Source: a virus
Length of the DNA: 28,132 nucleotides
IMG/VR virus record: IMGVR_UViG_3300042261_000575
Span: 1-28,132 of that record
Reading direction: 5' to 3' (one strand)
Position numbers and translations under genes: made by a program. Positions 3,088 through 21,049 of this stretch are shown here, one piece after another. The notes under the pieces were generated by a model. It ran no database searches and was not told the DNA's origin. It was given only the letters and a program-made list of their open reading frames with translations. Each line of letters starts with the position of its first letter. Position 1 is the stretch's first letter.

Positions 3088-3484
3088 TAATTCTATAAAT
3101 AATAGAACGCAGTATATACCTTATGAAAAGAGTGTAAAGATACAACATGCTCCTACAGATGAAGGATTAAAGTTATTACATGAGATGGAGCAAAAGATTA
3201 AGGACAATTTAATAAATTCTATAAAGGTTGAGGGGAATGTTTTTAATTTTAAAAGCATGATATTTTTGACATTTAATTCTTTTAATTATTATGGCATGTT
3301 AGGATATACTTTAAATGGTAAAGAGGAAACGATAGATTTTGAAATTCCTTATGAAATAAGACGTATGGAATTTAAGGAAAAGTGTAAAACAGTATATGAC
3401 ATTTTGGTTAAGTTGATAGCAGAAAGGCTTGCAAGGGATATAACCTTAGATATAATTGAAAAAAATAGTAATATGTTTAAATAA
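3080..3484 (+). CDS. Hypothetical protein, end of early-type operon
   Basis: This 134-aa soluble protein starts at ATG 3080 inside the end of the ATP-grasp gene, with an AAAGGA ribosome site about 12 nt upstream. Predicted character is a helical N-terminal part (GLKLLHEMEQKIKDNLINSI), a beta-rich middle (NVFNFKSMIFLTFNSFNYYG) and a helical C-terminus. It resembles small conserved phage proteins of unknown role. Its last 8 nt overlap the end of the convergent 891-aa gene, with no terminator hairpin between them. No function can be given. Confidence 0.75.
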   Translation: MFNNSINNRTQYIPYEKSVKIQHAPTDEGLKLLHEMEQKIKDNLINSIKVEGNVFNFKSMIFLTFNSFNYYGMLGYTLNGKEETIDFEIPYEIRRMEFKEKCKTVYDILVKLIAERLARDITLDIIEKNSNMFK

Positions 3485-6152
3485 TTTCTTTATAGAGTTT
3501 ATAAAAAATATTATTATTTATAAAGCTTTCTGAAACTTTAGTTTTCTTCGTTTTTTTAATTTCTTCATTAAATTGTTCTTCTGTAAGGGGTACTCCATTC
3601 AAATACCATTCTTTTGTTCCATCTGCCCTTTCAATAGCCGGACCATCCTCACGATGCCATTTACCATTCAAATACCATGCCTTTGTTCCATCTGCATATT
3701 CACAAGCCGGACCATCCTCACGATGACACTGACCATTCAAATACCATACCTTTGTTCCATCTGCCCCTTCATAAGCCGGACCACCCTCACGATGCCATTG
3801 ACCATTCAAATGCCATTCTTTTGTTCCATCTGCATCTTCAATAGCCGGACCATCCTCACGATGACATTGACCATTCAAAAACCATTCTTTTGCTCCATCT
3901 ACACTTTCATAAGCCGGACCGTCCTCACGATGCACTTTGCCATTCAAATACCATATCTTTGTTCCATCTGCCTCTTCAATAGCCGGACCGTCCTCACGAT
4001 GCAATTGCCCATTCAAATACCATTTTTTTGTTCCATTTGCATATACTTTCATTTCTGGTTCTTGTTTATTTGTTTTCAAAGGTTCTTTTATGGGTTTACC
4101 TGTGAAAAATATATTTATTTGATTGGTATTATAGACAGAATTCAATACAACTTTTATTAATTGTGGGTATTTTTCTTCTATTAAATCCTTTTTTTCTTTA
4201 TATGAGTTTGTTAAATAATCTAATAAAAGGTCTGTATATTCTGCATTTTTTGGGTCTTCAAAAGGTGATATAAAATAGTCGGGAATATTTTTCTTATTAT
4301 AATTATCATATAAATATCTGCCTAATATACTATATATTATAGAAATTGGTAAATAATCTTTATTATTTTTCATATATGATATAAATATTTTTGGAATACT
4401 TTCAAAGTTATAATTGCTTATTGGTGCATAATACATAAAAAAGTTTTTAATAAAATGTTCGTCTTTGTCTTCAATAGAAAAAAGCTCATTTAATAATATT
4501 TGTGGAACAGTGGTAATATCTTTTGTAGAAAATAAAATATCATGTATACAATCATAGGTAGAACTTTTGTGTTTGGTTAAATTTTCTAATATCTTTGAGA
4601 ATTTTTTTTCTATTATTTCAAAAGATTTTGGAATTTTAAATAAACATCTAACAATATGTGTTATTAAATCTTTTTGTACATAAGATGGATATTCTTCTAA
4701 TAAACGTATTATATTTTCTGGCAATTCTTTCAGAATATTAAAACATTGATCAATTGATTTATAATCGGTATATTTTGTACTATTTGTTATTAAACATATT
4801 ATTACATCATAAATTTTATGTTTATGAATAATGAAATCTTGTAATACTGGTGGAAATTTATTTAAATCTTTAAAATTTGAATAAAGTATATTTATAAAAT
4901 TATGAGTTATTTTATTTTCATTATTATTCAATAAAGCAGAATATATTTTTATTTGAGTTTTTTTGTCATAATTTTCAAAATTTTTAAAATCAGTAAAATT
5001 TTTGGTAATTTTTTGTAAATAAGAAAATGCTTTTTCTGGTATTTTTAATATTTCGTTAAACTTATCTTCGAGTGATATTCCGATGAAATTTTTTATATAA
5101 TATTTTGAAAAATCTTGTAAAATAGGGGATGAGACTTTAATAATATCATTATAATAATCTTCTGAATAGGATTTCAAATCCAAAAGTTCTTTTATCCATT
5201 CATAACCGTGATGATAATATTTTTCTAGTTTATTAAAAGCTGATCCAGTGTTGTGTTGGGCATGATAAGCTCCATCAATGGCATTTATTTTAAAAACTAA
5301 TTCTTGATTTTTTGAATTATTTAATATTAGCCAAGCATTACAAATTCTTGCCCATGCTATTCCTCCGAAGCTTCGACTTAGTTGTATATTAAGATATAAC
5401 CATTTAGCAAATTCTATAAATTGTTTTTCTGATATTTTAAGAGCTTCCAAGGCTCTTGTTATTTTTGCTACTCGATCATAATAATGTTTGTCTTCTTCTA
5501 TTTTATATTTCCCGTTTTTATAAGTTGATAAGAAATTTTTTGGTTTAGTTTTAATCTTTTTTATACTACTATTCGGATTAAATACTTGTTTTGTATATAA
5601 AAAGAATTTTTTAAATGCTGGTGTATTAAAATAAGGTGGTAAATATGTTGTTAAATCTTTATTTTTATCTATTTCTGATTCTTCTGATTCTTCATCATTA
5701 TTGGTAGATTCTTCATCTAAATCAATTGGTCCAGATTCTCTATATTGTATTTGATGTTCTATATTAGTATCAAATAATTGACTTAATTTAGAAATATCAT
5801 TATAATCAAAAACGTGTACATATTCGCAACATATAGACCAAAACAAATCATCTTTTAATTCTATTAATAATGAATCACAAAGTTTTTCCAACATTTCAAC
5901 TCTTTGTTTTTCAACATTTTCAAATCTTTCTGAAAATGTTAAAGGGTTTACGTCTCTGGCTACTACGCTTTCGTCATCTGTTTCTAATTTTGGTTTAGGT
6001 TCTCTTCGTCCGGCTTCTCCTTCTAGTGGCAGACTTAAATTATTAAGATTTGAAAGGGTATAAAAATCTATCATTTTTTGTCTTGGAGTATTTGGAATAG
6101 TATAAACAAATTGTCTTGCTTCTGTTAGAATATAGCTTTTAAAAGATTTCAT
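3477..6152 (-). CDS. Large virion-type protein with C-terminal HREDGPA repeats
   Basis: This 891-aa protein starts MKSFKSYILTEARQ, a leader like the capsid-targeting peptides of T4 internal proteins, with ILTE as a candidate prohead-protease site. Residues about 250-310 hold a conserved-looking patch (SFGGIAWARICNAW, then HNTGSAFNK) that I associate with internal or structural proteins of large phages. A long Asn/Lys/Ile-rich helical region follows. Residues about 700-865 contain six complete and one terminal copy of a 23-residue repeat, W-Y-L-N-G-x-x-H-R-E-D-G-P-A-x-E-x-x-D-G-T-K-x, similar in spirit to MORN or YwqK-type repeats. The start lies only 8 nt from a late promoter box and has no Shine-Dalgarno sequence. 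I infer a late, probably capsid-associated protein; its biochemical function is unknown. Confidence 0.75.
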   Translation of the reverse strand: MKSFKSYILTEARQFVYTIPNTPRQKMIDFYTLSNLNNLSLPLEGEAGRREPKPKLETDDESVVARDVNPLTFSERFENVEKQRVEMLEKLCDSLLIELKDDLFWSICCEYVHVFDYNDISKLSQLFDTNIEHQIQYRESGPIDLDEESTNNDEESEESEIDKNKDLTTYLPPYFNTPAFKKFFLYTKQVFNPNSSIKKIKTKPKNFLSTYKNGKYKIEEDKHYYDRVAKITRALEALKISEKQFIEFAKWLYLNIQLSRSFGGIAWARICNAWLILNNSKNQELVFKINAIDGAYHAQHNTGSAFNKLEKYYHHGYEWIKELLDLKSYSEDYYNDIIKVSSPILQDFSKYYIKNFIGISLEDKFNEILKIPEKAFSYLQKITKNFTDFKNFENYDKKTQIKIYSALLNNNENKITHNFINILYSNFKDLNKFPPVLQDFIIHKHKIYDVIICLITNSTKYTDYKSIDQCFNILKELPENIIRLLEEYPSYVQKDLITHIVRCLFKIPKSFEIIEKKFSKILENLTKHKSSTYDCIHDILFSTKDITTVPQILLNELFSIEDKDEHFIKNFFMYYAPISNYNFESIPKIFISYMKNNKDYLPISIIYSILGRYLYDNYNKKNIPDYFISPFEDPKNAEYTDLLLDYLTNSYKEKKDLIEEKYPQLIKVVLNSVYNTNQINIFFTGKPIKEPLKTNKQEPEMKVYANGTKKWYLNGQLHREDGPAIEEADGTKIWYLNGKVHREDGPAYESVDGAKEWFLNGQCHREDGPAIEDADGTKEWHLNGQWHREGGPAYEGADGTKVWYLNGQCHREDGPACEYADGTKAWYLNGKWHREDGPAIERADGTKEWYLNGVPLTEEQFNEEIKKTKKTKVSESFINNNIFYKLYKEII
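3592..4041 (-). repeat. 69-bp tandem coding repeat array (HREDGPA units)
   Basis: About six and a half copies of a 69-bp unit encode the C-terminal repeats of the 891-aa protein. The DNA is conserved as well as the protein: the codons for HREDGPA (cat cgt gag gat ggt ccg gct) are nearly invariant and GC-richer than the rest of the gene. This points to recent duplication or gene conversion rather than old repeats kept only by protein selection. Confidence 0.9.
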
Positions 6153-6160
6153 AGTATAAA

Positions 6161-6169
6161 TATTTATTA
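6161..6169 (-). promoter_or_regulatory. Late promoter box for the 891-aa gene
   Basis: On the minus strand this reads TAATAAATA, close to the T4 late box TATAAATA. Only 8 nt separate it from the ATG, so the transcript would be almost leaderless. The plus strand of the same palindromic block reads TATAAATA at 6155-6162, so the site may fire both ways. Confidence 0.6.
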
Positions 6170-6205
6170 TTTTTGATAATTTTTACAACAAATCTTGTAA
6201 TAATT

Positions 6206-6213
6206 TATAAATA
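6206..6213 (+). promoter_or_regulatory. T4-type late promoter box for the HAD gene
   Basis: A perfect TATAAATA ends 16 nt before ATG 6230. A second perfect copy is at 6155-6162. With initiation about 6 nt past the box, the leader would be near 10 nt, and no Shine-Dalgarno sequence is visible in it. An overlapping TTGTAA/TATATT pair (6195-6222) could also act as a weak sigma-70 promoter. Confidence 0.65.
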
Positions 6214-6229
6214 TGATATATTATAACAC

Positions 6230-6673
6230 ATGAAAACTAAAATAATATTTATTGATGTAGATGGCGTGCTTAATAATAGTCACACTACTGATACAACACC
6301 TGATGGATTTAATGGTATTGATCCAGAAAATGTAAAAAATTTAAAAAAAATCTTAATTAAAACTGATGCAAAAATTGTATTATCTTCTCAATGGAGATTA
6401 GCGGAAAAAGATAAAGATTATTTATGGGAGCATACAGGAGAATTTATTAAAAGCAGATATATTGGTGATACTCCAATAAGACTTAATCCAAATAGATTTT
6501 TAGAAATATCAGAATGGTTGGATAAAAATAAAGACATTGTGGATGATTATATTATTTTAGATGATAATAAGGTTTGGGGGCTTGAACATAAACTTATATT
6601 AACTGATGATGATGAAGGACTTACAGGAGAAATCGCATATAAAATAATTAAACTTTTAAATGAAAAAGAATAA
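6230..6673 (+). CDS. HAD-family phosphatase (RNA-repair-type HAD domain)
   Basis: This 147-aa protein consists of a single HAD domain. Motif I is IFIDVDGVLNN (residues 6-16; nucleophile D9, acid D11), motif II is IVLSSQWR (S52/S53), and the final acidic motif is YIILDDNKVW with two Asp residues near 106-107. The DGVLN start, SSQWR and ILDD pattern matches the small HAD domains often found with RNA-repair proteins (HAD_SAK_2 type), which remove phosphates from nucleic acid or nucleotide ends. It is one of two HAD domains in the window; the other is fused to a transglycosylase at 19964-21049. It overlaps a 58-aa gene at its 3' end. Phosphatase fold is confident; substrate is inferred. Confidence 0.8.
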   Translation: MKTKIIFIDVDGVLNNSHTTDTTPDGFNGIDPENVKNLKKILIKTDAKIVLSSQWRLAEKDKDYLWEHTGEFIKSRYIGDTPIRLNPNRFLEISEWLDKNKDIVDDYIILDDNKVWGLEHKLILTDDDEGLTGEIAYKIIKLLNEKE

Positions 6674-6836
6674 AAAAATACCATATTATTTGATAATAGG
6701 TTTAAAATTTTTCAAATTATTTAAAAAGGATAAAAAATTAGCTAAATTATATGGTTGGACGATAGATTATGGATTTGGGACAGACAGTCCACATTTTCAT
6801 ACACCTTGGGGCAATTTATATTGGAAAGATTATTAA
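6660..6836 (+). CDS. Small 58-aa protein overlapping the HAD gene
   Basis: An ATG at 6660, inside the last codons of the HAD gene (14-nt overlap, different frame), opens a 58-aa frame ending at TAA 6834-6836. The product begins MKKNKKIPYYLIIGLKFFKL (basic and hydrophobic), and its C-terminal half (YGWTIDYGFGTDSPHFHTPW) is rich in Trp, Tyr, Gly and His, unlike random AT-rich translation. It fills the whole gap up to the convergent 223-aa gene, with which it shares a TTAA stop overlap. I therefore think it is real. No clear Shine-Dalgarno sequence is present, so translation may be coupled to the HAD gene. Family unknown. Confidence 0.5.
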   Translation: MKKNKKIPYYLIIGLKFFKLFKKDKKLAKLYGWTIDYGFGTDSPHFHTPWGNLYWKDY

Positions 6837-7504: not shown

Positions 7505-7519
7505 AATAAACCTTTTAAT

Positions 7520-7527
7520 TATTTAGT
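7520..7527 (-). promoter_or_regulatory. Late promoter box for the 223-aa gene
   Basis: ACTAAATA on the minus strand, followed by ATTAAAAGG. The same ACTAAATAATT core recurs before the genes at 12451, 21854 and 25940, so this looks like a phage-specific late box variant. Confidence 0.55.
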
Positions 7528-7531
7528 AAAT

Positions 7532-9439
7532 TTAAAAATAAACAGAATAATCATTTAAATTATATACCGTTCCGACGTTTGCAAAAATATTATATTTTGC
7601 TGGATTAAAGTAAGTTTTATTTTTTGTAGAGGTGTCTAATGTTGTTAATAAGAATATAATTCTCATTCCGTCATCAGTAAAACTTTTTAAGCTATTATAT
7701 TCGCTTTGCATAAAATCACCATCTGTAAAAACTATAACAAGTGCTGGTCTTGGATATAATTTTTTAGTAGCAGTAAGTGCCGATGTAATATCAGTTCCTC
7801 CACCAGTTTTATCAAATTTAAAATTGGCAAATTGTACTGGCATTTGTTCAAAAGGCATAATAAATTGTCTTGGGATCATTGTGGTTTTTTTACCTTGTTC
7901 AATAGATGCAATAGACTCAAATTGATCGCCACTTGAAGAGAATACTCTTTCGGATTGTATTCTAGTATTAAATGTTACTAATCTTACATTACATTTACCA
8001 TTTAATTCTTTACCAATACTTGCGACTTCCCCGAAAACCTTTTTAACAACCCTATCTGGCATTGAACCTGAAACGTCAACCAAGAAACAAACCTCATTAA
8101 TGGTGAATCCTGTCATTCCTGGGAATAATATTCCTGATCTTTCGCCTTCTGATGAAAGTCTTTTGTTAGTTCTTTGATATGAACGTCTTTCGGCACTTGG
8201 AGAATTTATAAATTCTCTTAATATTTCTAACCAATTAAGTTTGGTTTCTTTTACTAATGAATCTTTCCAATCTCCTATACCTAAACGATTTCTTGCTGCA
8301 TCATAGCTTACACCACGTTTTTGGGCTGCTTCTTCCATTCTATCAGCATCGTTTCTTGCTTCTTCGATTTGTTGTTCGTGTTCTGCCATAGCATTTTGTT
8401 GATTCTTAACAGTAACATTTGGATCGGCTTTGATTTCCCCTGTTTTTTGATATTTGTCTATAACATTTTGAGGAACATCTAAAGATTCCTCAATTTCATC
8501 CTGTGTCTGTGGGGCGTTTTGAGGAGTTGTTTTGCCTTTTTCTTTGGCTTTTTTCATTGTTTCTTCTGCTTGTTTTATAAAATCTTTAAATTTGGGTAAA
8601 TTTAATTTTTCGTCGCCTGTTCCAAAACCCCTACCTTCCCCCTCGCCCTCTCCTTCTCCTTCTCCTTCACCCTCTCCTTCTCCTTCTCCTTCGCCCTCTC
8701 CTTCCCCTTCCCCTTGGTCTTCTCCTTCCCCTTCGCCTTGGTCTTCCCCTTCTCCTTCGCCTTGGTCTTCCCCTTCTCCTTCGCCTTGGTCTTCCCCTTC
8801 TCCTTCGCCTTGGTCTTCTCCTTCGCCTTGACCTTCTCCTTCAGTATCTTCAGTATCTTCAGAATCTGGCGGTTCACCTTGATATTTTTTTATAAGTAAA
8901 TTAAAATATTGTTTAGCATTTAAACCTTCTGGTAAATCTTTATATTCACCTTTACCCGCTAAAATTAATCCGCCTTCAATAAATCCTGCACGATTTTTTA
9001 ATAAATGATTAATTGCTAAATCGCAAGCAATATTAACAATATGCCATAAATTTTTATTTTTTGGATCAATATGAGAAAATGCAATATGATGTGCAAAAAT
9101 AATATGAAGAATTTCGTGTGTAACTATTGTAAATACTGAATCTATTGAAAGTTTATTTACAAAATCTGGATTATAAAATAAATGTTTACCATCTGTCTGC
9201 ATTGTTTTAATATCAAATCTTGCCATTTTATTTCTATCGTCGGGCAACATTTTTATTAAAGTAGTATAAAAGAATGGGTCAACTTGATCAACTAAACTAT
9301 AAGATTGTTCAAGTTTTCGTTCTGCATTTTTTATTATTTCTACCCGTTGTGGATCAATTCCTGCAAATCTATTAACATTTCCACGAATAGCTTCATATAA
9401 ATTCATTAAATTATTTTTATCTTTTTCTGCTAAGATCAT
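7532..9439 (-). CDS. Putative metallopeptidase with C-terminal VWA domain (DUF2201-type)
   Basis: This 635-aa protein combines two domains. The N-terminal part carries a zinc-metallopeptidase motif, THEILHIIFAHH (H108, E109, H112), with a downstream ACD (D140) as a possible third ligand. The C-terminal part is a von Willebrand A-like domain with a MIDAS motif DVSGSMPD (about 453-460) and GGGTD near 546. Between them lies a long Gly-Glu(-Asp-Gln) repeat (residues about 198-268). This is the DUF2201 arrangement, seen in bacteria next to MoxR AAA+ ATPases; no such ATPase is in the window. A late box (27 nt upstream) and an AAGGAA ribosome site precede it. The NLMNLYEAI segment near residues 10-18 resembles the capsid-targeting motif of its neighbours. 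Role in the phage unknown; possibly a chaperone-like or proteolytic maturation factor. Confidence 0.85.
   Translation of the reverse strand: MILAEKDKNNLMNLYEAIRGNVNRFAGIDPQRVEIIKNAERKLEQSYSLVDQVDPFFYTTLIKMLPDDRNKMARFDIKTMQTDGKHLFYNPDFVNKLSIDSVFTIVTHEILHIIFAHHIAFSHIDPKNKNLWHIVNIACDLAINHLLKNRAGFIEGGLILAGKGEYKDLPEGLNAKQYFNLLIKKYQGEPPDSEDTEDTEGEGQGEGEDQGEGEGEDQGEGEGEDQGEGEGEDQGEGEGEDQGEGEGEGEGEGEGEGEGEGEGEGEGEGRGFGTGDEKLNLPKFKDFIKQAEETMKKAKEKGKTTPQNAPQTQDEIEESLDVPQNVIDKYQKTGEIKADPNVTVKNQQNAMAEHEQQIEEARNDADRMEEAAQKRGVSYDAARNRLGIGDWKDSLVKETKLNWLEILREFINSPSAERRSYQRTNKRLSSEGERSGILFPGMTGFTINEVCFLVDVSGSMPDRVVKKVFGEVASIGKELNGKCNVRLVTFNTRIQSERVFSSSGDQFESIASIEQGKKTTMIPRQFIMPFEQMPVQFANFKFDKTGGGTDITSALTATKKLYPRPALVIVFTDGDFMQSEYNSLKSFTDDGMRIIFLLTTLDTSTKNKTYFNPAKYNIFANVGTVYNLNDYSVYF
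8635..8844 (-). repeat. Gly-Glu coding microsatellite and polypurine tract
   Basis: About 210 bp inside the metallopeptidase/VWA gene encode GE dipeptides and then five GEGEGEDQ-type octapeptides (24-bp period). The minus strand is almost entirely purine. Such tracts are prone to slippage and length variation, so the number of units probably differs between relatives. They also give long false frames (poly Ser-Pro) on the other strand. Confidence 0.9.
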
Positions 9440-9466
9440 ATTGATTCCTTTATATAATAGTATAAC

Positions 9467-9512: not shown

Positions 9513-11684
9513 ATGAAAACAAAAAATTTATTAGAATCTTTATATAAAAATATACTTTTAACGGAAATGAATAAAAAGTATATTGCAATGGTTGAAGATA
9601 TTAGAGATGATTTGCCATTTGATAATATATTTGGAGATGATTTGCGAATTATTATATCTTTTTCAGAAAATGCAAAATATCAAGAATTAAAGGATGAATT
9701 ATCTAAAATGAATGGTTTTATATCGTTCAATCCTGTTAAAAAGGAAGTTATTAGAAAAGTTAAAATAAAGACTCCACAAGGCGAAGGAACTAAGGATCAA
9801 GTTTTAAATATTGGAAAGGCTATAAGCAGTTTAAAAATACCAGAAGAAAAGAAAAAAAAATTATTAAATTGGTTTTCTAATTATAGTAGTAATATAGGGG
9901 AATTGGAAAAATTAAGTGATTATAGTATAGTTTTAAGTAGGCATCCAATAGATGTTCTAAGAATGAGCGATGTTGGAACCATACAATCTTGTCATGCGGA
10001 AGGTGGCATGTATTTTCATTGTGCTATACAAGAAGCCAAAAGTGGCGGACCTATTGCTTATTTAGTCAGAACAAAAGATTTAAAATCTCTGGATAATAAT
10101 AAATTTCAAAAAGATGAAATATTTGAAGATCGTGATAGAGATGTGGATGGTATAAGGGCTATAACTCGTTTAAGAATAAGACGTTATACTGACAAAGAAA
10201 ACAATGATTATGCAATTCCCGAAACACGAATTTATGGTGTTGGTATGGCTGGATTTTTAGATAGTGTTACAAAATTTTTAAAAGAAAAACAAAAGAATAT
10301 AATTGAATCACCAGAAAACGTTTCAACTTTATTTAATAATAAAAAGATAGTTAAACGTGGAGGAACTTATAGTGATTCTAGTGATTCGGCATTATTTAAT
10401 CATTTTTTTAATACTAATACTTTTTTTGGAAGTTTAAAACATCATACTTCTGATGAAGACGAAGAAAGTGAAGAAGGTGGTCAGAGTAGAGCAGATCAAT
10501 TCGAAGAAGAACTTAGTGATATGAAAGAAAGATATTCATATGATCATTCTTATGTTGATTATAATGTTGAAGGTGGAGATCATATGGAAGAAGTTTATTA
10601 TACTGCACATGGTGGAACAACTTTAGATTTACCAGAAATAGATTTAACGCAAATTGATTTTCCAGAAATGCGTGATCCCTATGATTTTAGTTATTATTAT
10701 AATATAGCAACTGAAAAAAATAATACATCAAAATGGTATTTGACTGGTCAAAGACATAGTGAGGATGGTCAGGCTCGTGAATATGCAGATGGAACAAACT
10801 ATCGTACAAAAAATTTACCAGAAGATGAAAAAAGACATATTATACAAATTTCTAAATTTTTACAAGATTTTCTTAAACTATCCAAAATTGATTATTATGA
10901 AATAAGTGGTATTTATATACACAATAAAAGTTCTTCATCAAGAGAAACTTTTGATAAAAGAGATCAAAGTGTTCAAATAATGTGGCATTTTGGAGAAGAT
11001 GAAAGTGATATTAGTGTAAATACTGATGATTTTTCGTATTTTTGTAGAGAAGTAAAAAGATTTGATGATAAATATGACGAAATAAAAGCAGCCTTTATTA
11101 AAGCTTTATATCGGTCTGGATTATTAAAAATTGATAATATTTCTAGTGGTAAAAAAGAATTAACAAATTATGAACAGTTTATGAGCGAAGAAGGTTTTGA
11201 ATTTAAATATTTTGCTTATGATGAAACTTCAATAAATGCAAGTAAATCCCTTAATATGTTAGTAAACGATATGCAATATAATAATTTTATAAACAATGCT
11301 AATATTGTTCCTGAAATTGAAAAAAACATTGAAGAATTATATAAAAAGTTTAAAATTAGTAAAGCAAAAAATTCTAGTGAACAAATGACATTTAAATCAT
11401 TTGTTGAAAGTTTAAATTTAGATCAACCTATAGATATTACAATATCTTTAAATTTGCGTGATGATTATAATGGTAATCAGTGGGTCGTGTTTTATATAGA
11501 ATTAGACCCTGCACAATTTACTCCTGATTTTGTAGATTTTATGATATATTTTGATCAATCTTTTGATAGTTTTGTTAATGTTAATATAAAAGCAATTGTC
11601 TTAAAAAATATACCAGATGAACATTTAAGCGATGAACAAAAACAAGAAAAAGAATATTTGTTAAAAAATTTGATAAATAATTAA
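9513..11684 (+). CDS. Large virion-type protein with one HREDGPA-like repeat
   Basis: This 723-aa protein begins MKTKNLLESLYKNILLTE, matching the LYxxILxE capsid-targeting-type motif of neighbouring genes; LLTE is a candidate prohead-protease site. Residues about 140-180 contain VLSRHPIDVLRMSDVG then SCHAEGGMYFHCAI, a Cys/His-rich patch that I recall in large-phage structural or internal proteins, without known activity. An acidic linker (DEDEESEEGG) lies near 312. Residues about 408-429 (WYLTGQRHSEDGQAREYADG) are one copy of the repeat found seven times in the 891-aa protein. The remaining C-terminal part is beta/alpha mixed with no motif I recognise. The near-leaderless late promoter suggests late expression. 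Probable virion or internal protein; function unknown. Confidence 0.7.
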   Translation: MKTKNLLESLYKNILLTEMNKKYIAMVEDIRDDLPFDNIFGDDLRIIISFSENAKYQELKDELSKMNGFISFNPVKKEVIRKVKIKTPQGEGTKDQVLNIGKAISSLKIPEEKKKKLLNWFSNYSSNIGELEKLSDYSIVLSRHPIDVLRMSDVGTIQSCHAEGGMYFHCAIQEAKSGGPIAYLVRTKDLKSLDNNKFQKDEIFEDRDRDVDGIRAITRLRIRRYTDKENNDYAIPETRIYGVGMAGFLDSVTKFLKEKQKNIIESPENVSTLFNNKKIVKRGGTYSDSSDSALFNHFFNTNTFFGSLKHHTSDEDEESEEGGQSRADQFEEELSDMKERYSYDHSYVDYNVEGGDHMEEVYYTAHGGTTLDLPEIDLTQIDFPEMRDPYDFSYYYNIATEKNNTSKWYLTGQRHSEDGQAREYADGTNYRTKNLPEDEKRHIIQISKFLQDFLKLSKIDYYEISGIYIHNKSSSSRETFDKRDQSVQIMWHFGEDESDISVNTDDFSYFCREVKRFDDKYDEIKAAFIKALYRSGLLKIDNISSGKKELTNYEQFMSEEGFEFKYFAYDETSINASKSLNMLVNDMQYNNFINNANIVPEIEKNIEELYKKFKISKAKNSSEQMTFKSFVESLNLDQPIDITISLNLRDDYNGNQWVVFYIELDPAQFTPDFVDFMIYFDQSFDSFVNVNIKAIVLKNIPDEHLSDEQKQEKEYLLKNLINN
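10734..10799 (+). repeat. Single copy of the HREDGPA repeat unit
   Basis: By hand alignment these 66 bp match the reverse complement of 3681-3746 (a unit of the array in the 891-aa gene) at about 58 positions, including a 45-bp stretch with only 4 mismatches. Such DNA-level similarity between two genes about 7 kb apart and on opposite strands suggests recent copying. Confidence 0.8.
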
Positions 11685-12450: not shown

Positions 12451-13110
12451 ATGAAAAAATTTAATGAATTTATGGAAGCCGTTTTAATTGCAAAGGTAGT
12501 ACCTACATCTGACGCAGTTGCACCAGTAGAAACCTGTGATGCTTGCGGAAACACCCCCCAAAAAGATATGTTTAGCAATGCTACAGACGATTTTATGAAA
12601 GAATTGGGATTTGAGGACAATGTTGAAGGACAAGAAAATATTATCCAACCTGATGATAATGTTGGAGAAACTGGCGAAATAGAAAGTGACGAAGAAACTT
12701 CCACATCTAATATAGAATTAGAATGTTTAGGTGAAGAAGGATTACAAATTAAGTTTAATGGTTTAACATTTGTATTACCTAAAGATGTTGTAGAAGCTAT
12801 TAAAGGTTATGAAACTGATGAATCTGCACCACACGAAGAAAGTGAAACAGAAGAACAACACGAACAACATGAGGAATCTGAAACACCAGAAGAAGAGGCA
12901 GCGGAACATTCAGAAGGAGAAACTGAATCAAACGAAGACGAAGAAGCCGAAGAAGAAAAGAAAGAAGTTACAGAATCTGTTAAAAAAGGCAAAGCAGTAA
13001 ATCCCTGGGCGGTATGCAATAAATCTACAGGTGGCAAGAAAAAAGCAGGTAAAGAAAAGTTTGAACGTTGTGTAACTGGTGTAAAATCTGAACATAAAAT
13101 AAAGAAATAA
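12451..13110 (+). CDS. Acidic protein with capsid-targeting-like leader and NPWAVC tail
   Basis: This 219-aa protein has three parts. It starts MKKFNEFMEAV, like the leaders of other putative capsid cargo in the window. The middle holds a CDACG pair (C29, C32 only) and a very acidic, Glu-rich disordered region (about 125-170). The C-terminus, ESVKKGKAVNPWAVC at residues 175-189 followed by KFERCV, is basic and matches a short motif that recurs in many phages and some bacteria, usually as a small free-standing protein or as a C-terminal tail. An acidic body with a basic Cys-containing tail would suit a scaffold, core or DNA-binding internal protein. It is expressed from its own late promoter. 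Function is inferred only. Confidence 0.65.
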   Translation: MKKFNEFMEAVLIAKVVPTSDAVAPVETCDACGNTPQKDMFSNATDDFMKELGFEDNVEGQENIIQPDDNVGETGEIESDEETSTSNIELECLGEEGLQIKFNGLTFVLPKDVVEAIKGYETDESAPHEESETEEQHEQHEESETPEEEAAEHSEGETESNEDEEAEEEKKEVTESVKKGKAVNPWAVCNKSTGGKKKAGKEKFERCVTGVKSEHKIKK

Positions 13111-13111: not shown

Positions 13112-13504
13112 ATGGATAAGTTTAGACAAATTTTTAAAGAAGATTTTGAATTATCAAAAGCTTTTGGTCAAAGAGTATCATCTGGTCAAGGGTCTGTTGG
13201 ACCAGCTTCAACAAATTTTAATAGTTTATTTCAAAGTGTTGCCGAAGCTATTCCAGAAGAAGAAAATCGTAAATCACATGATACTAAAATGCTTCCTTTT
13301 CCTTTAGATAGAATTGTTGATCAATTGGCTGATAATTACGAAACTTTAGTTAAAACACGTTTAACCCTACAACAAACTTTAAAATCTACTATAACATTAG
13401 ATCAAACAGAGAAAAATTTAATTAAAGAAGATATTGGCTATATTAATAAGTGTATTAATGTAATTAAAAAAATATCAAGAGATATAGAACAAATGAAGAT
13501 ATAA
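13112..13504 (+). CDS. Small helical protein with capsid-targeting-like N-terminus
   Basis: This 130-aa protein starts one base after the previous stop. MDKFRQIFKEDFELSKAF resembles the MKxFxxFIxE leaders of nearby genes. The rest is a Gly/Ser linker (about 24-36) and a helical, partly coiled-coil C-terminal half (PFPLDRIVDQLADNYETLVK and onward). No enzymatic motif. It probably shares the transcript of the acidic protein upstream, and may be a packaged or core-associated protein. The ribosome site is weak (AAAGAAA), consistent with coupling to the upstream gene. Confidence 0.65.
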   Translation: MDKFRQIFKEDFELSKAFGQRVSSGQGSVGPASTNFNSLFQSVAEAIPEEENRKSHDTKMLPFPLDRIVDQLADNYETLVKTRLTLQQTLKSTITLDQTEKNLIKEDIGYINKCINVIKKISRDIEQMKI

Positions 13505-13508
13505 AATC

Positions 13509-14804: not shown

Positions 14805-14805
14805 T

Positions 14806-15120
14806 ATGAATAACAAAATATCAATAGAAAGTTTAGATAAAGATAGTGAAGCTCGATGGATAACATTATTATCAGCAATAGATACATTGGATAGATTCTG
14901 TACACAAAATAATAAAAGTTTTGATGATATAGACTTTAAAATTCCAGCAATTAAACATTATATGGAAGATACCATAGAATATGTTAAACAGTTGCAAAAA
15001 GAAGATGATGTTTTAAAAAATGAAAAATCTATTAATAGTATACGTTCGAAATTAGCCCAAAATTTCTTTAATAATGTTATAACAGATAAAAAACATATAA
15101 GAACTTTACAATTAAATTAA
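14806..15120 (+). CDS. Small helical hypothetical protein
   Basis: This 104-aa, all-helical protein starts one base after the zinc-finger gene's stop, behind AAAAGGAAA. It has one Cys and no motifs. The position, last gene before the leftward block that precedes terminase, makes a small DNA-packaging or accessory role conceivable, but nothing in the sequence shows it. Its stop shares the four bases TTAA (15117-15120) with the convergent 546-aa gene. Confidence 0.65.
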   Translation: MNNKISIESLDKDSEARWITLLSAIDTLDRFCTQNNKSFDDIDFKIPAIKHYMEDTIEYVKQLQKEDDVLKNEKSINSIRSKLAQNFFNNVITDKKHIRTLQLN

Positions 15121-16757
15121 CCTTTTTTCATATAGAAATTTTCACCAACTTTATAAAGCATTATACCTGTATTACCTAATTTTTTAATAGGTTCTTGATC
15201 GGTAAGCTGATTGGTTGGTGGAAATGCTTGAACTAACATATCAACTATATTAATTGTTTCGCCAGATGGCATAGTTATTAAACCTAATTTAACTGGATTA
15301 AATGATGGTCTAGCTAAATAAGGTTTTAAAAATTTGTCAACAATTCCTCTATTTGGGTCAATTGATTTATAATCTGGAATAACTTTGCCATCTTTTCTAT
15401 TTTGAATTTTTAAAGAAGGTGGTTCTGGTTCTTTAATTTTAATTTTTTCATCTGCTTTTTCTATGGGTTTTGAATCTTCTCTTAATACAAATTGTTTAAA
15501 AGATTCGTGTGTTGGTTTCATTCCTTCTTCTGCGTCTCTTGAATTTTTAGCTGGATAATGTGTTATTTTATAAGCGTCTTTATCTTTAATAAGATTTTTA
15601 TGTCCAATAACAGGAAATCCGTGTTTTTTTAATATTTTTTCTGCTGCTATCTTTGCTTCTTTGTTGCTAACCCACCAATATATTATTTTTGTAGCTGGTA
15701 AATATCTAAAATTACAATAATCTTCTATATTATCTTCCATCATGCCTAAAGTGTAATGGTCGTTGTCTTTTTCCCCTTGATGTAGATAAATATCACCAGT
15801 TTTCTGTTTAAAATGTCCAAAAATTACTGTATCACTATGTATTTTTTGTCCACCTGTAAAAGATTCAATAGCTTCACTGAAAAGTTCGTTTTCTGCTTTA
15901 GAAATTTTTTCAATATCTTTAATATCAATTTTTTCATCATCTTCTAATATTTTTTCAAGTCTTTTAATAAAATCCCAATAATAATATTTTTCCAATAGTT
16001 TATAAATCACATTAGAAGGCAATTTGTTGCGAGATTGAAATTTTTCTATTTCATCAGGCGAAAGAGGTCTTGTAAAATCTTCTTCTCTTTTCTTTTTTAT
16101 AGTCTTTTTAAAATCTACTAATTTTTCAATATCTTTATTAATTTCATAAATTTTACTTTGCAACATTTGTTTTAAATTTTTAATTTCATCTTTATTAAAT
16201 GTTGTCAATTCTTTAAAATCTATAATATCTCTACGCAATTTAGCAGTTACTAAGTCTATTCTTGATACAACATCTTGAAACTTTTTTAAATATTTTCCTA
16301 TATTTATATCTAAATCTTTGGTTTGTTTTATCCATCGTTGATTAATTATATCATATATAGCATCATAACGATGTTCATCAATTTCATCATCAGAAACATT
16401 TATATAATAATTAATTGGATGTGTTGTTCCAATTGCTAAACTACCATTTAATTCATTTATAAATTTTAATAATTTTGTTTCTAATATATCGTTTACATTT
16501 TTTTCATATACATCTACAGTTATATCAATATCACAATCTTTGTTGTAATGTCTGGATAAAATACTTCCAACCATATAGAATCTTCTTACGGGTACTATTT
16601 CTTCAATTCTATCTATATCTTTAGCAATTTGTACTCTTATTCCGGTTTTTAATGTGGGTAATTTATCATCATAAAAATCAAAAACAGTGGCATCAAGGCT
16701 TTGCTTAGGAATATCTATAATAGATTCTTTAATAAATTCTGAAAAGATTTTTTTCAT
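15117..16757 (-). CDS. Nucleotidyltransferase-like protein with capsid-targeting-type leader
   Basis: This 546-aa protein starts MKKIFSEFIKES, a leader shared with other putative capsid cargo. Residues 58-82 read RRFYMVGSILSRHYNKDCDI and on to DIT: the G64-S65 and D76-x-D78 signature of the polymerase-beta nucleotidyltransferase fold. The usual third acid falls in HPINYYINVSDD (about 113-124), where Asn/Tyr occupy the expected strand, so activity is uncertain. A long helical region follows (about 160-300), then a domain with RYLPATKIIYWWVS near 352-365. At about 415-427 a second leader-like motif, ESFKQFVLREDS, appears inside the protein, before a C-terminal module. A late box lies 7 nt from the ATG and there is no Shine-Dalgarno sequence. 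Likely a late, packaged protein; substrate unknown. Confidence 0.7.
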   Translation of the reverse strand: MKKIFSEFIKESIIDIPKQSLDATVFDFYDDKLPTLKTGIRVQIAKDIDRIEEIVPVRRFYMVGSILSRHYNKDCDIDITVDVYEKNVNDILETKLLKFINELNGSLAIGTTHPINYYINVSDDEIDEHRYDAIYDIINQRWIKQTKDLDINIGKYLKKFQDVVSRIDLVTAKLRRDIIDFKELTTFNKDEIKNLKQMLQSKIYEINKDIEKLVDFKKTIKKKREEDFTRPLSPDEIEKFQSRNKLPSNVIYKLLEKYYYWDFIKRLEKILEDDEKIDIKDIEKISKAENELFSEAIESFTGGQKIHSDTVIFGHFKQKTGDIYLHQGEKDNDHYTLGMMEDNIEDYCNFRYLPATKIIYWWVSNKEAKIAAEKILKKHGFPVIGHKNLIKDKDAYKITHYPAKNSRDAEEGMKPTHESFKQFVLREDSKPIEKADEKIKIKEPEPPSLKIQNRKDGKVIPDYKSIDPNRGIVDKFLKPYLARPSFNPVKLGLITMPSGETINIVDMLVQAFPPTNQLTDQEPIKKLGNTGIMLYKVGENFYMKKG

Positions 16758-16764
16758 ATGTAAA

Positions 16765-16773
16765 TATTTATTA
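16765..16773 (-). promoter_or_regulatory. Late promoter box for the nucleotidyltransferase-like gene
   Basis: TAATAAATA on the minus strand, followed by TTTACAT and then the ATG. The 7-nt gap leaves an essentially leaderless transcript. Confidence 0.6.
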
Positions 16774-16791
16774 AATTTTTATATATTTCCA

Positions 16792-16823
16792 ATAAAAAAC
16801 CCACTAGATGTTTCCAGTGGGTT
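16792..16823 (-). terminator. Rho-independent terminator after the 293-aa gene
   Basis: AACCCACT and AGTGGGTT (16816-16823 and 16798-16805 on the plus strand) form an 8-bp stem with a 10-nt loop. Read on the minus strand it is followed by TTTTTTATT. It separates the 293-aa gene from the downstream nucleotidyltransferase-like gene, which has its own promoter. Confidence 0.85.
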
Positions 16824-16855
16824 AAAAAATTTTAAATATTTTTATTTAATTTATT

Positions 16856-17737
16856 TTATTTTATGAATGAATTATTTCCGCCTTTTGCAATTGGGCCTGT
16901 TCCGCCGACTGTTAGTGACATCTTAGGACCAAACTTGGTTTCTGGTGCCTTGGAAAGTGTTCCAGAGCGATCTTTTCCAGCAGGAGTGTTTGCTTTACCT
17001 GCACCAGATTTGCCAATATTATTCTTAGGATTTTTGCTCATTTTGGGATCAAATGATGTTTTCTTGGCAACTTTAGGATTAGAGGGTTCGGGAATTTTAC
17101 CAACAGAGGCAGATTCCTCTACTAGTGGCTTTTCAACATCTTCCATACCTTCCATGCCTGTTTCATCTTCACCCATATTATCAAGGTCTAAATCTTCATC
17201 ACCAGCAGGGGCTTCACCCATTCCACCGCCCAATTTGTCAGCAATGGCTAAGATGTTGTTTGCTAATTCACGAAAAGCTTGTGCAACATCAATTTGTTCG
17301 GGTTCTCCTGTTAATGATTCGTCTTCCATTGGACCTTCTTCAAAATCACCAGAATCTGTATCAAATGATTTGTCTTCTACATCACCAGCAGGAGTAATTT
17401 CTTCTGGAAGTTCTTCCTCTTTTAATATAGATGTATAAAGCTTATCAAAGGTTAAAGGAATTTCTTCGCCTTCCTTTTGAACCTTTTTCTTGGGAATGTC
17501 TTTTGAAACGGGGGCAGGTTTGCCTTTGCCGTCTGCTACGCTGTTATCGCCTTGTGATGGACCAGCTACGGGTTTCTTAATGTCACCCTTTGCATTTTCC
17601 ATATTATCATTTACTGGTTTGCCTTTTTCTTTGGCACCTTCGAAAGATTGGCCTGACATATCCTTGCCAACTGTTCCTTCTTTATTTTCTAATATTAATT
17701 TATAAGCGTCAAAAATTGCATCATTTGTTTTATCCAT
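16856..17737 (-). CDS. Low-complexity core-like virion protein
   Basis: This 293-aa disordered protein is rich in Gly, Pro, Lys, Asp and Glu. It begins MDKTNDAIFDAYKLILENKE and has an internal copy of the same kind of motif, LTFDKLYTSILKEEELPEE (about 94-112). Both fit the LYxxILxE pattern that may mark prohead-protease cleavage. An acidic middle (SFDTDSGDFEEGPMEDE) contains one likely helix (VAQAFRELANNILAIADKLG, about 149-168). The C-terminal 80 residues are basic and Gly/Ser/Lys rich. It has a strong AGGAG site, a late box 27 nt upstream, its own terminator, and GC-richer codons than its neighbours, all signs of high expression. A prohead-core or scaffold role is plausible by composition and context only. 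Confidence 0.65.
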   Translation of the reverse strand: MDKTNDAIFDAYKLILENKEGTVGKDMSGQSFEGAKEKGKPVNDNMENAKGDIKKPVAGPSQGDNSVADGKGKPAPVSKDIPKKKVQKEGEEIPLTFDKLYTSILKEEELPEEITPAGDVEDKSFDTDSGDFEEGPMEDESLTGEPEQIDVAQAFRELANNILAIADKLGGGMGEAPAGDEDLDLDNMGEDETGMEGMEDVEKPLVEESASVGKIPEPSNPKVAKKTSFDPKMSKNPKNNIGKSGAGKANTPAGKDRSGTLSKAPETKFGPKMSLTVGGTGPIAKGGNNSFIK

Positions 17738-17764
17738 AAGTTTTTCTCCTGTTGTCCTTTCAAT

Positions 17765-17773
17765 TATTTATTA
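17765..17773 (-). promoter_or_regulatory. Late promoter box for the 293-aa gene
   Basis: TAATAAATA on the minus strand, followed by ATTGAAAGGA and a separate AGGAG at 17746-17750 (plus-strand numbering). The 27-nt gap to the ATG equals that of the metallopeptidase/VWA gene. Confidence 0.6.
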
Positions 17774-17830
17774 ATTTTTAAACTAATTCTACAAAAATTC
17801 TATTGATTTGTTGTAAAATTAATACGTTTG

Positions 17831-17844
17831 TGTAAATATTTATA
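17831..17844. promoter_or_regulatory. Palindromic late promoter block before terminase
   Basis: TGTAAATATTTATA reads TGTAAATA on the plus strand (24 nt from the terminase ATG) and TATAAATA on the minus strand (17837-17844, about 100 nt upstream of the 293-aa gene). It may serve both divergent genes. Confidence 0.45.
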
Positions 17845-17862
17845 AAATTTGAGTGTATTTCT

Positions 17863-19563
17863 ATGGAAGATAATGATAAAAATCAATATTATTTAAATAA
17901 TCCTGCCTTACCTACGTCTAATTATGTATGTGAGTGGACTCCAGATCAAATAAAACAATTAAATAAAGCTAATTTAGATATTGTTTATTTTGCAGAAACT
18001 TTTTTCTATATTGTTAATTTGGATCGTGGTAAAGAAATTATTACACTTTATAAGGCACAAAAGAAAATATTAAAAGCTTTAGCCAAAAATAATCGTGTTG
18101 TTTTATTAGCTGCAAGACAGAGTGGAAAAACTACGTTGTTTACAATATTTGCTTTATGGTATACTTGTTTTCAAAAAGATAAAAGCGTTTTAATTGTTGC
18201 AAATAAAGAAAAAACAGCAGTAGAAATATTAAGTCGTATTAGAACTGCTTATGAATTTTTACCAAATTGGATTAAACCTGGTGTAAAAGATTATGCTAAA
18301 ACTGAAATAAAGTTTAGCAATGATAGTAGAATTATGGTAAGTACTACTGCGGCATCTGCTGGTCGTTCTGCATCAATAAATTGTTTATTAATTGATGAAT
18401 GTGCTCATATTGAGAAACATAAAGAACAAGAATTTTTTACATCTGTGTTACCAGTTATTTCGTCTTCTAAACAATCAAAAGTTTTTCTTATTTCTACAGC
18501 AAACGGTACAGGGAACTTTTTTTATAAAATTTATGCAGGAGCAGAACGAAAAGAAAACGAATGGCATTCGGAAAGTATATCTTGGCAGGATGTCCCCGGA
18601 AGAGATGACAAATGGAAAAAACAAGCATTGTCTGACTTGGGGGGTGATTTAATAAGATTTAAACAAGAATATGAAAATATATTTATAGAAACTGGAGAAA
18701 CTGCTGTAGATGGGGAATATTTAAAAGAATTGTTAATCAATGTAAGAACTCCTGAGATTATAAATACACAAGATTATAAAGTTTGGGAAAAACCAGATGC
18801 TAAAAAGATTTATGTGCTTGGTGTTGATATATCAGATGGAGTCGGAAGTGCGTCCTCTTGTATTCAGGGTTTAGACGTAACTGATCTTACTAATATTAAA
18901 CAAGTATGCTGTTATAGTAATAAATATATTGATACTACAAATTTTGCAAAAGAATTATTTAATATTTCAAAACAATGGGGAAAACCTTATTTATTAATTG
19001 AAAGAAATGCAATGGGTGGTGAAGTTCTTAATGCATTGGCAAATCCCCCTTATAATTATGAGCGTATAGTATGTTATAGCTCTGATCAACAGATAGATTA
19101 TGAAAAAAGAGGAATATTTAATTCTACTAATGTAAAATATGAAGGTGTTTCAAATATGAGATATTGGATGAATACCTTACGTGCTGTTAGTATATATGAT
19201 ATAGCCACCGTTCAAGAATTGCAAACCTTTACAAAAAGACCTAATGGTACTTGGGGTAAAGTTAATAGTGTTGGAGTTTTTGATGATCGAGTAATGGCAT
19301 TAATATGGGCATTATTTGCGTTACATATACCAATCGCTGAAAATATTTTTGAGGTTTTACAATATGATGAATATGGCAAACCTTTAAAAATAGCAAAGGG
19401 TTATTATGATAATGATAAAATTTTTAGTGTTGATCAGTATAGAAGAGATTGGGGAGATGCTGAATTTGTACCCTCTTTCGTAGGAATTAAAAGTGATATG
19501 GGAACAAATTGTGAAGTGGAAGACATGCTTCAAGATGGCTGGTTGATGTTTGAATCGAGATAA
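17863..19563 (+). CDS. Large terminase subunit (T4 gp17-like)
   Basis: This 566-aa protein is the ATP-driven motor and nuclease that packages DNA into proheads, acting with the portal and a small terminase. The ATPase domain shows Walker A AARQSGKTT (residues 83-91), Walker B LLIDECAH (D178, E179) and a coupling-motif-like LISTANGTG segment (about 211-219). The C-terminal RNase H-type nuclease shows GVDISDG (D322, D325) and FDDRVMALIWAL (D474/D475). The length is close to gp17-family proteins (T4: 610 aa). It has no strong Shine-Dalgarno sequence. No small terminase subunit is recognisable in the window, and the portal gene is not seen either. The stop lies 3 bp from the convergent SleB-type gene. 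Confidence 0.95.
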   Translation: MEDNDKNQYYLNNPALPTSNYVCEWTPDQIKQLNKANLDIVYFAETFFYIVNLDRGKEIITLYKAQKKILKALAKNNRVVLLAARQSGKTTLFTIFALWYTCFQKDKSVLIVANKEKTAVEILSRIRTAYEFLPNWIKPGVKDYAKTEIKFSNDSRIMVSTTAASAGRSASINCLLIDECAHIEKHKEQEFFTSVLPVISSSKQSKVFLISTANGTGNFFYKIYAGAERKENEWHSESISWQDVPGRDDKWKKQALSDLGGDLIRFKQEYENIFIETGETAVDGEYLKELLINVRTPEIINTQDYKVWEKPDAKKIYVLGVDISDGVGSASSCIQGLDVTDLTNIKQVCCYSNKYIDTTNFAKELFNISKQWGKPYLLIERNAMGGEVLNALANPPYNYERIVCYSSDQQIDYEKRGIFNSTNVKYEGVSNMRYWMNTLRAVSIYDIATVQELQTFTKRPNGTWGKVNSVGVFDDRVMALIWALFALHIPIAENIFEVLQYDEYGKPLKIAKGYYDNDKIFSVDQYRRDWGDAEFVPSFVGIKSDMGTNCEVEDMLQDGWLMFESR

Positions 19564-19566
19564 TAA

Positions 19567-19962
19567 TTACCAATATTTTAATTCTATAAATATATGATTA
19601 CCAATTATTTCACCCTTTTGTCCTCTTGCCCAATTTGGACATTTTGATGAACTATATAAAGATACAGTAAGATAATTTGTGGGTTTAATATTAATAAAGG
19701 GATAACATATAAAAGTTTTGCTTAACATATCATTTGCTATTTTTTCACAAATTTTATAAATTTTTGGTTCTTTTATAACAATATCATTAACATCATTCCA
19801 ACAACTAAAAGCTTTAGGTTTTAGACAAACTTGTGCCATTTTTGACGTATCGCCTTTTGCTCTATTATAAATAACAGTTGCAACTGCTTGAATCCCTTTT
19901 AATTGCTCACCCCTGGATTCTGCGTATAATGTTTTTGCAATTATTTCTAAATCTGTTTTCAT
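19567..19962 (-). CDS. SleB-type cell wall hydrolase
   Basis: This 131-aa protein is a compact member of the SleB/Hydrolase_2 family, which cleaves peptidoglycan glycan strands. Family signatures are IIAKTLYAESRGEQ (catalytic Glu likely E15), AVATVIYNRAKGD (27-39), CLKPKAFSCWND (46-57) and a final GNHIF motif. There is no signal peptide or membrane anchor, so export would need a holin or delivery within the virion. It lies 1 bp downstream of the HAD-transglycosylase gene on the same strand, has no clear Shine-Dalgarno sequence, and is probably co-transcribed with it. It could be the endolysin or a virion-associated wall-degrading enzyme. Confidence 0.85.
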   Translation of the reverse strand: MKTDLEIIAKTLYAESRGEQLKGIQAVATVIYNRAKGDTSKMAQVCLKPKAFSCWNDVNDIVIKEPKIYKICEKIANDMLSKTFICYPFINIKPTNYLTVSLYSSSKCPNWARGQKGEIIGNHIFIELKYW

Positions 19963-19963
19963 A

Positions 19964-21049
19964 TTAATTTTTTGCTAAAAATCTTATAACATCTTGTGCA
20001 TAAATAATGGCATTTTGTTTATTTGTACCTTGTGGACCACCGTTCCATATTGCAGCCAATTCTCTGTGTGTTGGAGGTCGTCCGTGTTTTTGTTTAAAAT
20101 GTTTTCCCCAATATGATAGATATTTTACAAGAACATCTACGGCTTTTTGTGGATTAAACATTTCATGATGTTTATAAGATGTTCCATAAATGGTATTAAC
20201 ATCTTTTACTACTTCTGGATGTATTTGATATTTTCCAAAGGCTACACCTTTATCGCCTATTGCATTATTTGGATTTTTTAAATGTCCGGTTTCTTTTTTT
20301 GCAATAGCAGGTATAAGAGTTTTAATTTTAGATTCTAATGTACTATCCAATTTTTTAAGTTGTTTTAAATTTTTTTCTTTTGATGTGGGATATAATCCAT
20401 GATGTCTTGGAACATTTTTTATATTATGTTGTGGAGTGTTTCTTTGTTCTATTTTTCTATAAAAATCTTCAGTTTCTTGTTTTCTTTTCTCTTCTTCGTC
20501 CTTTTTTTCAAAATCTTGAGCAACTTTATTTTTAATATGTTCAATTTGTTCTGGACTTAATTTTTGCTGTTTGGGGTGAAATAATGAGTAAGGAGTTAAT
20601 GCTGAAGCCCCTAAACCAGCAATTGCCGCCCCTTTTCTTAGTGATGATTTCCAATCTTCTTCAATAATATTCGAATATGTGTCGTAAAATAAATTTTCTC
20701 TTATTTTATCTTTTTTATCTATTACTGGTATTCCTTTATTTTTTTTAATTTGTATAGCTTTATCATCATAAAAAACTTCCATATCAGGAGTTTTAATGTT
20801 TGTAATTTCTAAATCTGGTAAATTATTTTCTTTTAACCACTCTTTAATGGCTTTTACATCTTTTTTATCATTCGCTCTTGCTGTGAAAATTTTAACTGTT
20901 TTGCCTTCTTCGATCCATTTTTTAACATTTTCCAACATTGCTGGAATAGGTTTGCCTATTACACCTTTTTTATAGGACGTATAATGGGCTAAAGTTGCAT
21001 CAAGATCGACAGCAATACTTTCTTTAATAAAATGTTTAAAAGTTATCAT
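19964..21049 (-). CDS. HAD phosphatase fused to lytic transglycosylase, with capsid-targeting-type leader
   Basis: This 361-aa protein has four parts. Residues 1-11, MITFKHFIKES, match the leader motif of other putative cargo. Residues 12-115 form a HAD domain: AVDLDATLAHY (D15, D17, T19), KIFTARAND (T57) and FYDDKA (D95, D96). Residues 119-155 hold a second leader-like motif (LFYDTYSNIIEED) and a short hydrophobic stretch (AAIAGLGASALTPYSLF), followed by a charged linker. Residues 240-361 are a lysozyme-like transglycosylase (SLT-type) with IPAIAKKETG (E253 likely catalytic), GKYQIHPEV and AIWNGG. A late box lies 8 nt from the ATG and no Shine-Dalgarno sequence is present. Domains are clear; the joint role is inferred, perhaps wall degradation on entry plus a separately released phosphatase. 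Confidence 0.8.
   Translation of the reverse strand: MITFKHFIKESIAVDLDATLAHYTSYKKGVIGKPIPAMLENVKKWIEEGKTVKIFTARANDKKDVKAIKEWLKENNLPDLEITNIKTPDMEVFYDDKAIQIKKNKGIPVIDKKDKIRENLFYDTYSNIIEEDWKSSLRKGAAIAGLGASALTPYSLFHPKQQKLSPEQIEHIKNKVAQDFEKKDEEEKRKQETEDFYRKIEQRNTPQHNIKNVPRHHGLYPTSKEKNLKQLKKLDSTLESKIKTLIPAIAKKETGHLKNPNNAIGDKGVAFGKYQIHPEVVKDVNTIYGTSYKHHEMFNPQKAVDVLVKYLSYWGKHFKQKHGRPPTHRELAAIWNGGPQGTNKQNAIIYAQDVIRFLAKN

Follow-up and report, generated by a model that had tools for sequence, protein, structure and literature searches.

Leaders resembling the T4 capsid-targeting sequence on unrelated proteins of a T4-like phage suggest a varied capsid cargo

Introduction

The capsid-targeting sequence (CTS) of phage T4 and the internal proteins IPI, IPII and IPIII were reportedly treated by Mullaney and Black in 1996 and by Repoila in 1994. 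Amber suppression of the IPIII leader MKTYQEFIAE has assigned targeting to residues 4 and 7 and processing to residues 8 and 10, and it is proven that this CTS can bring foreign proteins into the head (PMC9026906). Maturation cleavage of T4 gp23 removes 65 residues (PMC9958956), and the region of this cleavage, AFGSFLTE/A, has the same shape as the leaders described below. Both IPI and Alt act in the host (PMC9958956, PMC12373910). Alt is a packaged enzyme whose short leader is cut after Glu and which undergoes another cut at LTE-619, close to its C-terminus (PMC5694885). Both the tag and the role that it has on the internal proteins of T-even phages are already known.

Two further groups of phage proteins are close to this system. 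Polyvalent proteins, multidomain chains with ADP-ribosyltransferase (ART), GNAT, nucleotidyltransferase or lysozyme domains, have been proposed to be capsid-packaged; they are, however, defined by domain architecture, and the accessible portion of that paper describes neither a T4-type leader nor copies of one at domain joints (Iyer et al. 2017, PMC5512222). Virion enzymes of cyanophages, including a cytidylyltransferase/NMNAT, a SAM hydrolase and a kinase, carry the leader or a close form of it, whereas the accessible portions of the corresponding reports do not link presence in the virion to the leader (PMC10665884, PMC9602691, PMC9146016). A literature search, which was not exhaustive, returned no account of the tag being spread over dozens of families in environmental T4-like phages, of its link to cyanophage virion enzymes or of leader copies at fusion joints.

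Here we analyse a stretch of 28,132 bases (the window), a fragment of a T4-like myophage with a GC content of 28.6% whose sequence record is a viral contig only. As in T4 IPI, IPII and IPIII, its proteins exhibit N-terminal leaders of 10–12 residues with aromatic or aliphatic residues at positions 4, 7 and 8 and Glu at position 10, and unrelated bodies stand under one leader and are swapped between relatives. Unlike these T4 proteins, which are small GmrSD inhibitors (PMC12373910), the bodies in the window, among them putative enzymes, are up to 891 aa long, and copies of the leader lie inside fused proteins. Comparison of leader spacing, bodies, relatives and published virion proteomes makes it very probable that these leaders serve as capsid-targeting sequences like those of the T4 internal proteins.

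Results and Discussion

The locus and its leaders

Codon-based gene calling gave 27 genes in the window, all seven N-termini quoted in the preliminary description being present in the sequence, so that its claim of at least five genes with a similar short leader stands. The leaders and the landmark gene of the locus are as follows:

6117..6152, minus strand: leader MKSFKSYILTEA of the 891-aa repeat protein (gene 3477-6152; seen in the sequence and in the motif count)
9513..9566, plus strand: second-type leader MKTKNLLESLYKNILLTE of the 723-aa protein (gene 9513-11684; seen in the sequence)
12451..12480, plus strand: leader MKKFNEFMEA of the acidic 219-aa protein (gene 12451-13110; the ortholog in relative G001 keeps MKKFNQFMEA)
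13112..13144, plus strand: leader MDKFRQIFKED of the 130-aa protein (gene 13112-13504; seen in the sequence and in the motif count)
16722..16757, minus strand: leader MKKIFSEFIKES of the 546-aa putative nucleotidyltransferase (gene 15117-16757; G001 ortholog MKTFSEFINES)
17678..17737, minus strand: second-type leader MDKTNDAIFDAYKLILENKE of the acidic 293-aa protein (gene 16856-17737; conserved in homologs)
17863..19563, plus strand: large terminase of the T4 gp17 type (PF03237 and phrog_2)
21017..21049, minus strand: leader MITFKHFIKES of the 361-aa protein (gene 19964-21049; seen in the sequence and in the motif count)

The genes of the 546-, 293- and 361-aa proteins flank the large terminase, and sheath-like and tail-tube-like genes as well as a putative homing endonuclease lie elsewhere in the window. 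The latter (24107-25903, 598 aa) is situated between the sheath and tube genes, with a different, shorter gene at its place in G001. A 635-aa protein at 7532-9439, kept in G001, combines a DUF2201 metallopeptidase and a VWA part with a long (GEGEDQGEGE)n linker.

Two relatives were used for comparison: G001 (248,016 bases), a close relative that is collinear with the window in reverse orientation and whose terminase is 72% identical, and G003 (236,294 bases), whose terminase is 47% identical. In both, a prohead protease of the gp21 type and a capsid protein of the gp23 type score above the Pfam cut-offs; the window's own head cluster, including the protease gene, falls outside the 28-kb record, and gp21 and gp23 are thus seen in the relatives only.

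Leaders of the T4-like form are not a product of chance

The leaders place hydrophobic residues and Glu at the key positions of the T4 CTS, some with one inserted residue, and the Glu is followed by a small or acidic residue. The leaders of the 891-, 546-, 361-, 723- and 293-aa proteins contain L/I-x-E, whilst those of the 219- and 130-aa proteins contain F-x-E and depart from the T4 L/I-x-E cleavage rule; the G001 ortholog of the 130-aa protein begins with MNKFRTALKED, a weaker motif match. A looser motif, [FY]..[FYILM][ILMVF].{1,2}E[ASDENGQT] starting in residues 2–10, was found at the N-termini of 4 of the 27 genes. Its frequency in the interior of the encoded proteins predicts 0.20 such genes and the shuffling of N-termini 0.10, with never more than 2 in any of 500 shuffles. 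Across the G001 genome the enrichment is modest, with 6 matches against 1.3 expected.

A strict rule taken from T4, M-x-x-[FY]-x-x-[FYIL]-[ILMVF]-x-E, selects ipII and ipIII in T4 and nothing else, with the leaders of IPI and Alt (Alt: MELITELFDE) failing it; Alt differs from the window proteins in this off-rule spacing, and no ADP-ribosyltransferase was found in the window. Two window genes conform to the strict rule (130 and 361 aa), those of the 891- and 546-aa proteins being offset by one residue, and no match was obtained on reversed sequences of the window, the two relatives and T4. In G001 there are three credible matches, all within 7 kb and adjoining the large terminase, as well as a fourth at 80,768 that is absent from the codon-based gene calls. 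In this relative, the motif is hence not found equally on early enzymes, the pattern that the preliminary description had set against packaging: the three credible G001 matches cluster at the terminase. Across the scan set as a whole, location of tagged genes near the terminase did not exceed expectation (13 against 11).

The low GC content of the window and the occurrence of the looser motif inside proteins as well are what would be anticipated if an AT-rich genome simply yielded look-alike N-termini rich in K, F, I and E. This explanation is hardly credible given that shuffled N-termini gave at most 2 matches, that reversed genomes gave none under the strict rule, and that the permuted-codon patterns and the 48% GC cyanophage described below also speak against it. 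For the T4-like form, the shuffles and the permuted controls refute the chance reading, a result that does not extend to single LYxxILxE cases: the T4-like leaders of the window are real.

The related LYxxILxE forms reported previously, LYKNILLTE (residues 10–18 of the 723-aa protein) and AYKLILENKE (residues 11–20 of the 293-aa protein), are indeed present, but constitute a looser, separate class of the shape N-x-hydrophobic..Y..[IV][IL]xxE, for which the statistics are weaker than for the T4-like form. In case of the 293-aa protein, Y..[LV][IV]LE is kept in G001, G003 and the contigs L007 and L011; a search pattern for this class returned 7 loci, a suggestive but small number. A second N-terminal motif, M..EN.LIFE.Y, was observed on unrelated bodies in other contigs (L006:176-1886, L206-L211), with L006 exhibiting three such genes in tandem directly before the large terminase, one of them weakly Tpt1/ART-like.

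The T4 late-promoter box TATAAATA occurs 20 times in the window, compared to 9.9 expected. Exact boxes at 21831-21838, 21065-21072, 26509-26516 and 6206-6213 lie 23–28 bases before four gene starts, none of which belongs to a leader gene.

The leader is widespread in viral contigs

A degenerate DNA pattern encoding M-K-T-F-x-x-F-I-x-E retrieved at least 120 stretches with at least 126 matches from viral contigs, while control patterns with the same codons in permuted order retrieved 6 and 2 stretches. Among the matches listed, 118 of 126 are gene starts (in-frame stop at most 20 codons upstream), 101 of 126 have Q or E at the free position 6, where T4 has E, and the codons for the fixed leader residues vary synonymously. 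Since position 6 is biased towards Q or E and synonymous codons vary freely, selection acts on the protein. Once stripped of their leaders, 124 bodies among the matches listed group into 55 clusters that share no detectable similarity with one another; the representatives of these bodies match, among other Pfam families, Zeta-toxin-like and other P-loop kinases, ADP-ribosyltransferases (ADPrib_exo_Tox, ART-PolyVal), GNAT, cytidylyltransferase-like proteins, glucosaminidase and adenylate kinase. T4 core genes are present on 83 of the 120 leader loci listed, in comparison to 0 of 6 control loci.

The strict rule and virion presence in three cyanophage proteomes

In the T4-like cyanophage S-CREM2, 52 of 219 ORFs make up the published virion proteome (PMC10665884). 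The strict rule is matched by 4 of the 52 virion proteins and by 0 of the 167 other ORFs (Fisher p=0.0029), namely a SAM hydrolase, an APH-like kinase, a cytidylyltransferase and ORF136, three of which are annotated enzymes; under the looser rule the counts are 5/52 and 3/167 (p=0.02). S-CREM2 has a GC content of 48%, and all four of its strict matches being virion proteins is not what base composition would produce. The majority of its non-structural virion proteins lack the strict rule. In S-SCSM1, two annotated genes match, of which the NMNAT is marked as a virion protein and the other, of 106 aa, is not; a third match falls inside the polymerase gene. Neither of the two S-SZBM1 matches (105 and 165 aa) was detected in a proteome that lists only 30 proteins; the virion cytidylyltransferase of this phage bears the offset form MRFRQFIIEA. 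Pooling the three proteomes, with the S-SCSM1 gene total taken as about 285, 5 of 8 strict matches are virion proteins compared to 1.5 expected (p=0.008). The tag is informative on virion presence, yet it is neither complete nor error-free. A leader-like RFASFMAEAAVDQ was also seen about 17 residues from the annotated start of S-CREM2 gp12 (L174:7704-10313), a virion protein annotated as a Cas9-type nuclease.

Virion proteomics cannot separate the head interior from the tail, and these data would also be compatible with a leader that targets a non-capsid site, e.g. the tail, the membrane or a replication compartment. We consider this very unlikely: the leader matches a T4 CTS that loads foreign proteins into the head (PMC9026906), T4 core genes accompany it at most of the loci listed, and the S-CREM2 matches are largely annotated enzymes.

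Exchangeable bodies and internal leader copies

In order of position within the protein chains, the features that bear on the bodies of the 361-, 546- and 293-aa proteins are:

20732..21016, minus strand: HAD-like phosphatase domain, residues 12–106 of the 361-aa protein (phrog_1238, E=2.5e-13; tblastn)
20654..20701, minus strand: internal leader copy RENLFYDTYSNIIEED, residues 117–132 of the 361-aa protein, between the HAD and transglycosylase parts
20003..20323, minus strand: SLT transglycosylase domain, residues 243–349 of the 361-aa protein (PF01464, E=4e-4, near the cut-off)
15474..15506, minus strand: internal leader copy ESFKQFVLRED, residues 418–428 of the 546-aa protein, before its C-terminal part (G001 keeps ESFKHFMFLED)
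17411..17449, minus strand: internal site FDKLYTSILKEEE, residues 97–109 of the 293-aa protein (FDKL....L.EEE invariant in five homologs)

In most tblastn alignments of the 361-aa protein with HAD homologs from other phages, similarity sets in at residue 11–13, just past the leader. No HAD was found in the corresponding slot of G001, which instead holds two genes beginning with MKTFKQFILES (192 aa) and MKTFKQFMLES (126 aa, GNAT above the Pfam cut-off). The transglycosylase half is a stand-alone gene in G001 with the N-terminus MKTDMRQNEFYKNYKEVIEEDW, which corresponds to the internal RENLFYDTYSNIIEEDW of the 361-aa protein. Unrelated, exchangeable bodies under one leader are therefore seen both at this slot and in the 55 clusters among the matches listed. 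With regard to a possible likeness to polyvalent proteins, which would place several conflict-type domains in one packaged chain, the 361-aa protein joins HAD and SLT domains, and the 546-, 723- and 891-aa proteins are mostly without assigned domains.

The nucleotidyltransferase assignment of the 546-aa protein is tentative, its Pfam matches lying below the cut-off. A GS...DxD motif is visible by eye. The AlphaFold model of the whole protein was too poor to use (pLDDT 45); for the N-terminal 300 aa, modelled with five homologs, the fold matches in the PDB are AadA/AAD(9)-type aminoglycoside adenylyltransferases, which are non-significant (E≥0.05) and stem from a low-confidence model (pLDDT 54), and a profile search of the PDB gave nothing relevant. 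Homologs of the 546- and 293-aa proteins were not found in annotated phages. Nucleotidyltransferase homologs of the G003 group (L031:5753-6649, L007:320-1228, L011:5999-6904) have the first Asp of DxD replaced, so that activity may have been lost in this group.

In G003, the counterpart of the 546-aa protein is a 299-aa nucleotidyltransferase gene followed by a separate 162-aa gene starting with MKTFEQQIVNENLKRF, whose C-terminus looks similar to that of the 546-aa protein on visual comparison. The seven leader proteins make up 40% of the residues and contain 7 of the 8 internal motif matches in the window (p=0.009), a pattern that the preliminary description had missed. These internal copies probably mark the joints of fused, separately tagged genes, and they may serve as extra protease sites. 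It is conceivable, though we would not favour it, that the leaders delimit cargo polyproteins in which tagged genes fuse, leaders stay at the joints and one packaged chain delivers several effectors; ESFKQFVLRED and LFYDTYSNIIEED are the candidate joint stretches. Such a chain would be loaded as a single unit, after which the prohead protease would cleave it wherever a leader has been retained, and the cut of Alt at LTE-619 offers a precedent for such internal cuts.

Variable cargo and conserved components

By tblastn, neither G001 nor G003 contains the body of the 891- or the 723-aa protein, and no relatives of the 723-aa protein were found in viral contigs. The 891-aa protein carries a C-terminal array of WYLNGQxHREDGPAxExADG repeats, a single related unit of which is present in the 723-aa protein. 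The 293-, 219- and 130-aa proteins are conserved in G001, the 293-aa protein also in G003; its five homologs are otherwise about 31% identical, with FDKLYTSILKEEE among the best-kept stretches. Since they are conserved and two of them (293 and 219 aa) are strongly acidic, these three proteins may be parts of the prohead core that carry the same signal, rather than injected cargo.

The same conservation, together with the short leaders of T4 gp24 (MAKINELLRES) and gp2 (MAIFQIINES), could be taken to mean that the leader is generally an element for interaction with the prohead core or scaffold and that the tagged proteins are head parts, not injected effectors. As a general explanation this is unlikely: tagged bodies elsewhere are mostly enzymes and unknowns that change between relatives, and two T4 proteins with leaders of this kind, IPI and Alt, exert their action in the host (PMC9958956, PMC12373910).

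A varied, tagged capsid cargo is thus the reading that we prefer, in agreement with the earlier proposal that the phage packs varied proteins including enzymes: the spacing of the T4 CTS, the selection of IPII and IPIII by the strict rule, the four out of four S-CREM2 matches in the virion and the presence of gp21 and gp23 in G001 all support it, whilst the sequences themselves exhibit a common N-terminal motif on unrelated bodies that is kept or re-used as the bodies change. The tagged enzymes of the window phage are most likely capsid cargo, and by analogy with T4 the variable tagged proteins (the putative nucleotidyltransferase, the HAD and transglycosylase protein and the 891- and 723-aa proteins) are likely to be injected. 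On the T4 model, the leader would bind the prohead core late in infection and the tagged protein would become enclosed during formation of the gp23-type shell; cleavage after Glu by the gp21-type prohead protease would then release the mature protein, which would stay with the packaged DNA and enter the next host alongside it.

Conclusions

In T-even phages, a 10-residue tag is known to serve in the loading of a few small anti-restriction proteins. Our findings show that this tag is common among uncultivated T4-like viruses, where it stands on dozens of protein families, many of them enzyme types of bacterial conflict, and in one published proteome, that of S-CREM2, it picks out packaged enzymes. 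A short sequence rule thus offers a route from genome sequence alone to proteins that may be injected, and the question of what T4-like phages bring into the host at infection becomes testable in cultured cyanophages.
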